A DNA stretch of 48,009 bases. Source: Myxococcaceae bacterium. GTDB taxonomy: Bacteria; Myxococcota; Myxococcia; Myxococcales; Myxococcaceae. Positions 31,725 to 37,214 of this stretch are shown piece after piece. The notes under the pieces are model-generated. The model saw nothing but the letters and a program-made list of their open reading frames with translations, was not told the DNA's origin and made no database searches. The first letter of the stretch is position 1, and each line of letters opens with the position of its first letter. The stretch is taken from assembly GCA_019694575.1 (NCBI GenBank), contig JAIBBR010000022.1, positions 1-48,009 on the forward strand, given 5' to 3'. Both the position numbers and the translations under genes were made by a program.

Positions 31725-32513
31725 ATGCTCATTCGAACCCTGGTGGTGTGTGCCTCATTTGGCTCCTCGTGGGCTTTGGCTCAAACGCCTGACGCTGGCA
31801 TGCCGGCTCCTGCAGCAGCCACTCCCAGCGCGGGCGACGCGGCCGCCAAGCTCGACGCGCTCTTTACCCAGCGCGATGACGCAGCGGCGCTCAAAGAAGC
31901 CGACAAGGTGATCAGCGAGAGCTTGAAGGCGGCGCCCAATGACTACGCTTTGCTGTGGCGCGCGGCGCGGCAGCGTTGGTGGGTGGCTGACGGCGCGGTG
32001 GAAGAAAAGCTCAAGCGCCAACTCGGTAAAGAGGGGTGGATCTACGCAGAGCGCGCCTTGAAGGCCAAGCCCGGCGCAATGGAGGGGCACTATTACATGG
32101 CGCTGAGCATCGGCGCGTACTCACAGGCGGTCGGCATTTTAAAGGCGCTCTCCGAAGGGTTAGAAAGCAAGTTCGTCGACAACCTCGACGCCGCCATCAA
32201 GGCTGACGAAGGGTTTGATCGCACCGGAGGCCGCAACGCCAAAGGCCGGTACTATTGGGAGCTGCCTTGGCCGAAACGCGACCTCGCCAAGTCGTATGTT
32301 GAATTCGACGCGGTGTTGAAGCGCAACCCCGAGCACCTGCGCGCGCAGCTGTACAAAGCGCAGTCGTTGCTCAAAGACGGCAAGGCCCAAGAAGCGAAAG
32401 TGCTGGTTGACAAAGTGTTGGCTGGCGACTGTGCGTATGATCCTCCCGAGTGCAAACGGGTGAAGACCTGGGCCAAGCCAGTCAAAGAGCAAATCGAAGA
32501 AGAATTGAAGTAG
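31725..32513 (+). CDS. Exported TPR protein (possibly TatT-like)
   Basis: A 262-residue protein with a signal peptide ending at ALAQ (MLIRTLVVCASFGSSWALAQ). An Ala/Pro-rich stretch follows, then helical repeats: DNLDAAIKADEGFDRTGGRN, KGRYYWELPWPKRDLAKSYV, DAVLKRNPEHLRAQLYKAQS. The combination of a G-R-Y-Y-x-x-L-P segment and TPRs recalls TatT components of tripartite ATP-independent transport, but no TatP/TRAP genes are adjacent, so that is only a suggestion. It ends 12 nt before a large palindrome and converges on tatA. Confidence 0.65.
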   Translation: MLIRTLVVCASFGSSWALAQTPDAGMPAPAAATPSAGDAAAKLDALFTQRDDAAALKEADKVISESLKAAPNDYALLWRAARQRWWVADGAVEEKLKRQLGKEGWIYAERALKAKPGAMEGHYYMALSIGAYSQAVGILKALSEGLESKFVDNLDAAIKADEGFDRTGGRNAKGRYYWELPWPKRDLAKSYVEFDAVLKRNPEHLRAQLYKAQSLLKDGKAQEAKVLVDKVLAGDCAYDPPECKRVKTWAKPVKEQIEEELK

Positions 32514-32524
32514 CGCTCTCTTGC

Positions 32525-32691
32525 CTTAAGGGCCCGCCACAAAATAAACGGTCCGAGATCTGCGCCGAGGCGCCCGGATGGCGAGGCGCGCGACCGAGAC
32601 TTACCAGTGGTAAGTCGCAGGGAGTGCAACGCGGACAGCCGGGATGGATCGGCGCTGATATGGAGCGTTTATTTTGTGGCGGGCCCTAAAG
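32525..32691. repeat. Long palindromic element between convergent genes
   Basis: The arms at 32529-32550 and 32666-32687 are a perfect 22-bp inverted repeat (starts AGGGCCCGCCACAAAA). After one mismatch they extend by CTT/AAG to 32525 and 32691. The centre is a perfect 9-bp repeat, GACTTACCA-G-TGGTAAGTC, at 32598-32616. GCGCCGA at 32562-32568 also pairs with TCGGCGC on the other side, so the whole 167 bp is one imperfect palindrome centred near 32608. It nearly fills the 191-bp gap between the TPR gene and tatA. It has no U-tract. Candidate identities are a MITE-like element, a structured RNA or an unusual bidirectional terminator. Confidence 0.75.
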
Positions 32692-32704: not shown

Positions 32705-32938
32705 TTAAGCGTCTTTCGCGCCGACCTTGTCAGAAGAAGCCTCTGCCGCGCCTGTGCTGCTCTTGGCCGCCATCGCGTCAGGGTTTTTCTTGGTTTCGTT
32801 CGCGTCGTCTGCGCCAGCGAAACCCTTCTTGAAGTTGCGAATTGCCGAACCCAGGCTCGAGCCCAATTGCGGCAGCCGCGAGGCTCCGAAGAGCAAGAAG
32901 ATGATGGCAAATACGATGATTAGTTCTTGCGTTCCCAT
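32705..32938 (-). CDS. tatA: Twin-arginine translocase subunit TatA/TatE
   Basis: A 77-residue protein with the TatA plan: an N-terminal membrane helix (TQELIIVFAIIFLLFGASRL), a hinge PQLG, an amphipathic helix SSLGSAIRNFKKGF and an acidic/Ala-rich tail. TatA oligomers form the passage for folded proteins in the Tat pathway. The FG-x-x-[KR]LP motif is here FGASRLPQLG. ATG 32938 has GAAGG 5 nt upstream; GTG 32944 would add two residues. TatB and TatC are not seen nearby. TATATT upstream (about 32977) may be part of its promoter. Confidence 0.92.
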   Translation of the reverse strand: MGTQELIIVFAIIFLLFGASRLPQLGSSLGSAIRNFKKGFAGADDANETKKNPDAMAAKSSTGAAEASSDKVGAKDA

Positions 32939-36128: not shown

Positions 36129-37214
36129 ATGCAGACCCTCGGTAGCAAGGCACAAGGAGCCCGTCTCGAGCGGGTCAAAGCGTCGACGCGGTTCAAAGAT
36201 GGCGTCTTTCAAAACACGCTTCCCGTCGGGCCTGGCCTGAAGAAGGGCACCGGGGTCGCCACGATAAAAGAGTACATGTGCGGAGGGCAGCGGCGCGTAC
36301 CGACCGGCGTGCTCCCACTGCAAAACCCGCTCGAGACGTGGGCACAGCCGGCGCAAAGCGGTTTGCGCGCCACGTGGCTGGGTCACTCGACGGTGCTGCT
36401 CGAGATTGACGGCAAACGCGTGCTCACCGACCCCGTCTGGGGAGAACGCGTGTCTCCGCTTTCATTCGCGGGGCCGAAGCGGTTTCACCCGGTGCCGGTG
36501 ACGATTGAGCAGTTGCCGCCGCTCGATGCGGTGGTGGTTTCGCACGATCATTATGATCACCTCGACTACCCGAGCATCTTAAAGCTCGTACCACTCGGAG
36601 TGCCCTTCATCACCTCGTTGGGCGTGGGTGCGCACTTGGAAGCGTGGGGTGCTCCGCCCGAGCGAATTATCGAGCTCGACTGGTGGGAATCAGCGCAGCT
36701 GGGCGATCTCACCATCACCGCGGCGCCGTCACAGCACTTCTCGGGCCGTGGCGTCGGCGATCGCAACCGCACGTCGTGGTCGTCAATGGTGATGCGGGGG
36801 CCGCGCCATTCGGTGTTCTTCAGCGGCGATACCGGGTTGACGCGCGAATACGAAAACATTCGGCAGAAGCTCGGCCCGTTCGATTTGATCATGCTCGAGG
36901 TCGGGGCCTGGCACCCGGCGTGGGGCGACATTCACTTAGGGCCCGAGAACGCGCTGCAGGCACACGCGCTGCTCGGCGGCGGAGCGTTCTTGCCGGTGCA
37001 CTGGGGCACCTTCAATCTCGCCATTCATGCGTGGGACGAGCCGGCTGAGCTCTTGGTGAAGCTTGCGCCTACGAATGCGCCGCTGATCATGCCGCGGCTG
37101 GGCCAAAGCGTTGAGCCTACTCACGTGCAGTCGATCGATGCCTGGTGGCGCGAGGTGAAAGAGACCGTCACCGCCCCGGTGCCGGTCGAAGCGTTGGCCG
37201 AGCCTATTGATTGA
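36129..37214 (+). CDS. Metallo-beta-lactamase-fold hydrolase (NAPE-PLD/UlaG-like)
   Basis: A 361-residue MBL-fold hydrolase. The metal motif SHDHYDHLD is at 138-146. ATWLGHSTVLLEIDGKRVLT precedes it, as in NAPE-hydrolysing phospholipase D and UlaG relatives. FFSGDTGLTREYENI and LPVHWGTFNLAIHAWDEP supply later metal ligands. No signal peptide is seen, so it is probably cytoplasmic. Family members cleave phosphodiester or lactone bonds, and the substrate here is not known. AAAGGTG lies 8 nt before ATG 36129. The Ppx-type gene follows 30 nt downstream. Confidence 0.87.
   Translation: MQTLGSKAQGARLERVKASTRFKDGVFQNTLPVGPGLKKGTGVATIKEYMCGGQRRVPTGVLPLQNPLETWAQPAQSGLRATWLGHSTVLLEIDGKRVLTDPVWGERVSPLSFAGPKRFHPVPVTIEQLPPLDAVVVSHDHYDHLDYPSILKLVPLGVPFITSLGVGAHLEAWGAPPERIIELDWWESAQLGDLTITAAPSQHFSGRGVGDRNRTSWSSMVMRGPRHSVFFSGDTGLTREYENIRQKLGPFDLIMLEVGAWHPAWGDIHLGPENALQAHALLGGGAFLPVHWGTFNLAIHAWDEPAELLVKLAPTNAPLIMPRLGQSVEPTHVQSIDAWWREVKETVTAPVPVEALAEPID

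Follow-up and report, generated by a model that had tools for sequence, protein, structure and literature searches.

A large palindrome takes up the intergenic space of a convergent gene pair in the window (the whole stretch of 48,009 nucleotides from a Myxococcaceae bacterium that was analysed here), and three accounts of it were offered in the initial annotation: a new MITE family, a structured RNA read from both strands, or a replication or recombination site. Which of these applies, and what the folded interior may be kept for, is the question that the locus raises. The palindrome itself is real: its perfect arms can be read directly, and, as RNA, both strands fold far more stably than shuffled sequence (-114 kcal/mol with z -8.8 for the + strand, and -99 kcal/mol with z -9.1 for the - strand). 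The arms, annotated as 22 bp long, are indeed perfect, but each includes one base of a flanking repeat (A32529 / T32687), so that the terminal inverted repeat (TIR) measures 21 bp; the centre at 32598-32616 reads as the perfect 9-bp inverted repeat that had been described. Read in this way, the element proper covers 32530-32686 (157 bp), is flanked on either side by the direct repeat TAA, and has the + strand layout TAA-GGGCCCGCCACAAAATAAACG...CGTTTATTTTGTGGCGGGCCC-TAA; between the TIRs, half A of its core matches the reverse complement of half B at ~76%. The features of the locus are:

31725..32513, + strand: flanking gene for a 262-aa protein with a possible TPR stretch, stop at 32513
32527..32529, no strand: left target-site duplication TAA, assigned from the sequence and from the 3-bp repeats across 19 full copies
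32530..32550, + strand: left TIR GGGCCCGCCACAAAATAAACG, perfect, 21 bp
32551..32597, + strand: core half A (GTCCGAGATCTGCGCCGAGGCGCCCGGATGGCGAGGCGCGCGACCGA), recurring in relatives and in other phyla
32598..32616, no strand: apical inverted repeat GACTTACCA-G-TGGTAAGTC, in the fold an 8-bp stem with a 3-nt loop
32617..32665, + strand: core half B, read as complement (..GGGAGTGCAACGCGGACAGCCGGGATGGATCGGCGCTGATATGGAG), recurring in relatives and in other phyla
32666..32686, - strand: right TIR, exact reverse complement of the left TIR
32687..32689, no strand: right 3-bp direct repeat TAA
32705..32938, - strand: flanking gene TatA/TatE, 77 aa (TIGR01411 62 bits, PF02416 60 bits), stop at 32705

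The two stops confirm that the gap is convergent. The 262-aa protein matched no curated family above cut-off, and the gene beyond tatA/E encodes polyphosphate kinase 1. In a scan of the window for perfect 14-mer inverted repeats with spacers of up to 300 nt, the palindrome was the sole cluster besides one pair at 36162/36325; this pair (36162-36338) is a second perfect 14-bp inverted repeat, with a 149-nt spacer. A dedicated bidirectional terminator, or a replication or recombination site, would account for the filling of the convergent gap. On reading the sequence, however, no U-tract follows the hairpin, so that it does not qualify as an intrinsic terminator, and the element is mobile and dispersed in many copies, in both orientations and at gene ends, as described below. 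We give such a dedicated role next to no probability, and the earlier suggestion of a replication or recombination site finds no support.

The genome from which the window derives (5.28 Mb in 220 contigs) contains 19 full-length copies with 95-99% identity, in both orientations, and at least eight further partial copies, truncated or at contig ends and likewise in both orientations, which brings the total to about 27; a diverged copy on contig C75 (71% identity) has the flanks TAA/TAA or TTA/TTA, depending on the strand. Identical 3-bp repeats flank 17 of the 19 full copies, 16 of them as TAA/TAA or TTA/TTA and one as TTC/TTC; in the other two, TAA on one side faces TTA on the other, the middle base being different. 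The TTC/TTC copy speaks in favour of genuine duplication of the target and against triplets that are a fixed part of the element's end. Fifteen of the full copies lie no more than 25 nt from the 3' end of a long open frame, compared with 81 of 207 control TWA sites (Fisher p=0.001), an enrichment that is probably conservative, since spurious frames inflate the control rate. Genes at these loci, called by a simple codon-usage script, are arranged convergently around nine of the 19 copies and divergently around none, and in several copies the repeat triplet is the stop codon itself; siting at TAA stop codons can be explained by the target triplet together with selection against gene disruption. 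Copies in both orientations, 3-bp direct repeats and a position mostly at gene 3' ends indicate a MITE-type non-autonomous transposon. Given also a length below 500 bp (157 bp), perfect 21-bp TIRs and the lack of a conserved frame, the identification as a mobile MITE is close to certain.

Empty sites were found for a relative (G045) that was assigned to Anaeromyxobacter by inference; a further genome, G070, is of the same genus. About 49 pairs of GAGCRCGTGAAYCMATCCCC ends occur in G045 at a distance of 161 bp, and of 20 hairpins read there, the two flanks are identical in 16 (TCA/TCA or TGA/TGA) and four deviate. Sister species have uninterrupted empty sites with one triplet (for example, caccgcTGA|gcgcgg, with the filled counterpart caccgcTGA[161]TGAgcgcc); this demonstration concerns the hairpins of the Anaeromyxobacter family in that relative, not the window copy. 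The copy number, the 3-bp target duplications and, in the relative, the empty sites support the proposal of a new MITE family. Target duplications and empty sites also bear on the possibility that the element is a palindrome of REP/BIME type and depends on a Y1 tyrosine transposase (RAYT) for its movement. REP, REPIN and BIME elements are likewise palindromic, intergenic and multi-copy, occur in several phyla and are possibly recognised as a folded strand (GTAG-/CGTC-tagged REPs, PMC3733652), and recognition of a folded strand would suit an HUH enzyme. The window element differs from them in its TIRs, its target duplications and its size (157 bp vs 20-40 bp), and the anatomy of CGTC-tagged REPs, 8-9-bp stems with an unpaired tag (PMC3733652), is unlike its own. 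No adjacent Y1 transposase was seen: of eight genomes with hairpins, three (one an incomplete draft) had no detected PF01797, and none of the matches listed lies beside a hairpin. Membership in this group is, in our assessment, very improbable.

MITEs are usually defined by their ends; their interiors are regarded as dispensable and normally diverge fastest. The interior of the present family behaves otherwise. A covariance model of the core (~100 nt; shortened Infernal calibration) was searched against 147 genomes of the class and detected related hairpins in 16; those examples that were folded form strong hairpins, many of them longer than 130 nt. A degenerate core pattern retrieved at least 110 stretches from 84,980 named genomes, where by our own estimate less than one match would be expected by chance, and the matches listed span Acidobacteriota, Myxococcota, Verrucomicrobiota, Planctomycetota, Alpha-, Beta- and Gammaproteobacteria as well as Nitrospirales, Nitrospinota, Elusimicrobia and Omnitrophota. 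A second covariance model yielded 2-97 hits per genome in 19 pattern-found genomes, with rough E-values. Among these, G205 (L143, Verrucomicrobiota) has 97 hits in 3.8 Mb and G210 (L179, Nitrospinota) 71 in 2.2 Mb; as these hits are often near contig ends, the element may fragment both assemblies. That the core is shared and conserved across phyla can be stated with high confidence.

The ends do not follow the core. Many of the cross-phylum cores sit inside longer palindromes with differing ends (AGGGCCCGCG..GAATAA, CTAGCAGCCCGTGGCAGAA, AGTGCCT..CAGAAATACGG and others), and a 107-bp MITE in another genome (G030:C13:269505; L286 1503-1610) has ends of the window type, TAAGGGCCCGCTCAGGAATAA, without the conserved core. 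Varied ends around one core, and window-type ends without it, imply that ends and core are separable; of the two, the core is the older. A further TIR type is found at G002:C509:8373-8493 (L063), where a core lies in a palindrome with GTACGACAACCCAGAAGTTCGTGC ends and CTA/TAG flanks. Searched with Rfam 15 covariance models, 13 superfamily loci gave no match at their hairpins (a single weak, unrelated hit lies elsewhere in L218), and no published description of the core was found in the literature searched, with subscription literature, ISfinder and figures being outside the search. Bacterial MITEs such as Correia/NEMIS, ERIC, RUP, Chunjie and QMITE2 (reviewed in PMC10969869) have in common with the window element that they are short, non-coding and intergenic, carry TIRs and direct repeats, form strong hairpins and are mobilised in trans. 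The reviewed families (PMC10969869) are mostly defined by their ends and confined to one or few taxa, whereas the window family combines a covarying cross-phylum core with varying TIRs; QMITE2, which like Chunjie was compared by description only, has direct repeats of 7-11 nt (PMC5896051) vs three here.

The core is conserved as a structure. At three stem positions that the search pattern left free, 84 of 91 distinct cores are fully complementary, compared with a maximum of 41 in 2000 shuffles, and six base combinations occur there. Both sides have changed in 14 of 19 stem pairs across 44 diverse cores, with 199 double-change cells vs 68 in shuffled and 29-63 in slid controls. As pairing covaries across these cores and the element is multi-copy, two of the outcomes that the initial annotation named as refuting, a single copy and no covariation, are contradicted. 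Among the copies of the own genome, TIR-arm covariation was absent, A and G at TIR position 10 being independent on the two arms (AA 8, AG 7, GA 2, GG 2). The covarying pairs are interspersed with conserved mismatches: on the strand read half B first, TC faces TC, and on the A-first strand (the + strand of the window) the same positions form tandem G-A/A-G steps. In addition, one non-Watson-Crick pair is coupled: C-T in 53 and T-G in 33 cores (86 of 102 distinct cores), other combinations being hardly seen.

These patterns have to be weighed against the simplest reading, an ordinary MITE with a neutral interior, in which the cross-phylum likeness would be due to recent horizontal transfer and the complementarity to arm-to-arm copying. 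MITEs are common and mobile (PMC10969869), and the close identity among copies within the genome would be expected of such an element. However, differing TIRs around a retained core are the opposite of a type II MITE (PMC10969869), and the asymmetry between half A and half B is the same everywhere observed. Copying between arms would erase the conserved mismatches, yet these are retained even though the intervening pairs switch from G-C to C-G, and the core had 0 matches in plasmids, phages and IMG/VR. A neutral interior is therefore improbable. Ends that vary around a structured interior conserved with covariation across phyla suggest that the interior should have a function, and selection of the core as a fold is likely.

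Which strand would act is less clear. Since the cross-phylum pattern prescribed the TC (GA) positions, the cores it retrieved are bound to be invariant there, and the class hits found by the model are the fairer test: their A-first folds (19 hits, none of them selected by the pattern) contain 67 two-by-two loops, of which 42 are GA/GA and 16 GC/AA. Genomes searched with the second model, itself built from pattern-chosen cores, contributed 49 further GA/GA loops in 28 loci. The A-first strand is the more stable fold in 18 of the 19 class hits, as expected from tandem G-A steps, and in its outer stem G-U exceeds A-C by about 56:10, a summed ratio of counts that are not phylogenetically independent. 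One pair, by comparison, is a constant T-G wobble on the B-first strand and C-A on the A-first strand, which, together with the lack of bias in element orientation relative to transcription (16:13), argues against a clear strand choice. The tandem G-A steps make the A-first strand the likelier active fold, and we lean slightly towards it. Of the earlier idea of a structured RNA from both strands, the structure is upheld by the strong core covariation, but only one of the two strands has conserved mismatches that look purposeful.

The same observations could be taken to mean that the element is chiefly a structured RNA, an sRNA or 3'-UTR module whose role would be in mRNA stability or termination and whose mobility would be secondary. 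Stem covariation, the G-A steps with the stabler fold on one strand, the excess of G-U over A-C on that strand and the position at gene 3' ends, in convergent and not divergent gaps, all fit such a role. A module that needs read-through should, however, be biased to A-first reading, and the lack of an orientation bias speaks against this; Rfam match and U-tract are both missing, and placement at TAA stops is already explained by the target triplet and selection against gene disruption. We consider a primarily regulatory RNA unlikely.

The preferred explanation, a palindromic MITE that is mobilised in trans by a DDE transposase and whose core is kept for its fold, is probable. It may operate in the following manner: (i) a DDE transposase supplied in trans would recognise the ~21-bp TIRs, which resemble those of the IS5/IS1182 group; (ii) insertion would occur at a TWA trinucleotide, which is duplicated; (iii) surviving insertions would be mostly those at gene 3' ends, often with the stop codon TAA as target; (iv) the core would be retained because its folded form works. 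Candidate functions of the core are binding of a host protein, assistance to a transposition step and production of an RNA. Protein binding as RNA or ssDNA appears the likeliest; our best guess is a putative protein-binding hairpin that aids spread or persistence, whichever transposase serves, with the chances of RNA and of ssDNA (during replication or transposition) as the acting form about even. Integron attC sites are imperfect hairpins as well, in which conserved mismatches make one strand distinct. The window core likewise is an imperfect hairpin with strand-distinguishing conserved mismatches; unlike attC, the element is dispersed with target duplications and has no integrase or cassette array, and no 7-bp attC core motifs were seen on reading it.

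What appears to distinguish the family is a selected, folded and strand-asymmetric core that is common to many phyla and paired with different ends. We tentatively extend this, at somewhat less than even chances, to a pan-bacterial hairpin superfamily, defined by a fold in which tandem G-A steps on one strand separate the covarying stem pairs, in which the folded core is the selected module and swaps TIRs to ride the DDE transposase of its host (IS5, IS1182 or other). If true, this would amount to a selfish nucleic-acid module with its own function, achieved without encoding a protein. The family, multi-copy in many genomes and absent from Rfam, also supplies a ready-made annotation for many intergenic palindromes of soil and freshwater genomes that have lacked an explanation, and its cultured hosts (Anaeromyxobacter, Sphingomonas, Aureimonas) make the question of function directly testable.

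The element lacks a transposase gene, and a helper IS matching the window copy would carry GGGCCCGCC..AATAAAC ends and TWA duplications. Searches of the own genome by TIR pattern, PF13359 and PF01609 revealed no autonomous IS with the exact window TIR, a weak negative as the assembly seems to lack short contigs and hence IS interiors; four transposase queries (tblastn) had no match at the cross-phylum core loci. The single TIR-pattern match, at C23:7214, was rejected as a partner end as it has no inverted mate. An IS5-family copy of this genome has ends TAGGGCCTGTCGACA, which resemble AGGGCCCGCC-ACA of the window TIR without matching it exactly; its ends, also given as TAGGGCCTGTCGACATATTC, are alike in style to the window element. 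An IS with ends inside two hairpins (C164, C60) was likewise rejected, being an independent IS with CCCGTATCGGTCACCGG ends and CTAR flanks that inserted at the hairpin centre. This IS is multi-copy with CTAA/CTAG flanks (C164:81583-81708, C60:1-124, C160, C57, C24, C209, C200, C144 and C13; L079-L087), two copies being at hairpin-element centres, and its interior is missing from the assembly.

A closer candidate is present in G045, where an IS1182-family element occurs in nine copies with ends GGGACCGTGAAGTAATCC / GAGAGCGTGAAGGAATCG and a transposase scoring 370 bits for IS1182. Its ends are similar to the TIR of the G045 hairpins, GAGCGCGTGAATC, and both share TCA..TCA flanks in the same orientation, which makes this element the probable helper of the hairpins there, judging by ends and target. 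Hairpins abut the IS1182 element or each other at a shared TCA at C1:3425816-3427643, 116408-118135, 304057-304381 and 2200729-2200913. All IS copies, and nearly all of the hairpins read, are oriented alike with respect to the asymmetric TCA, a uniformity that is unusual for a symmetric DDE reaction.
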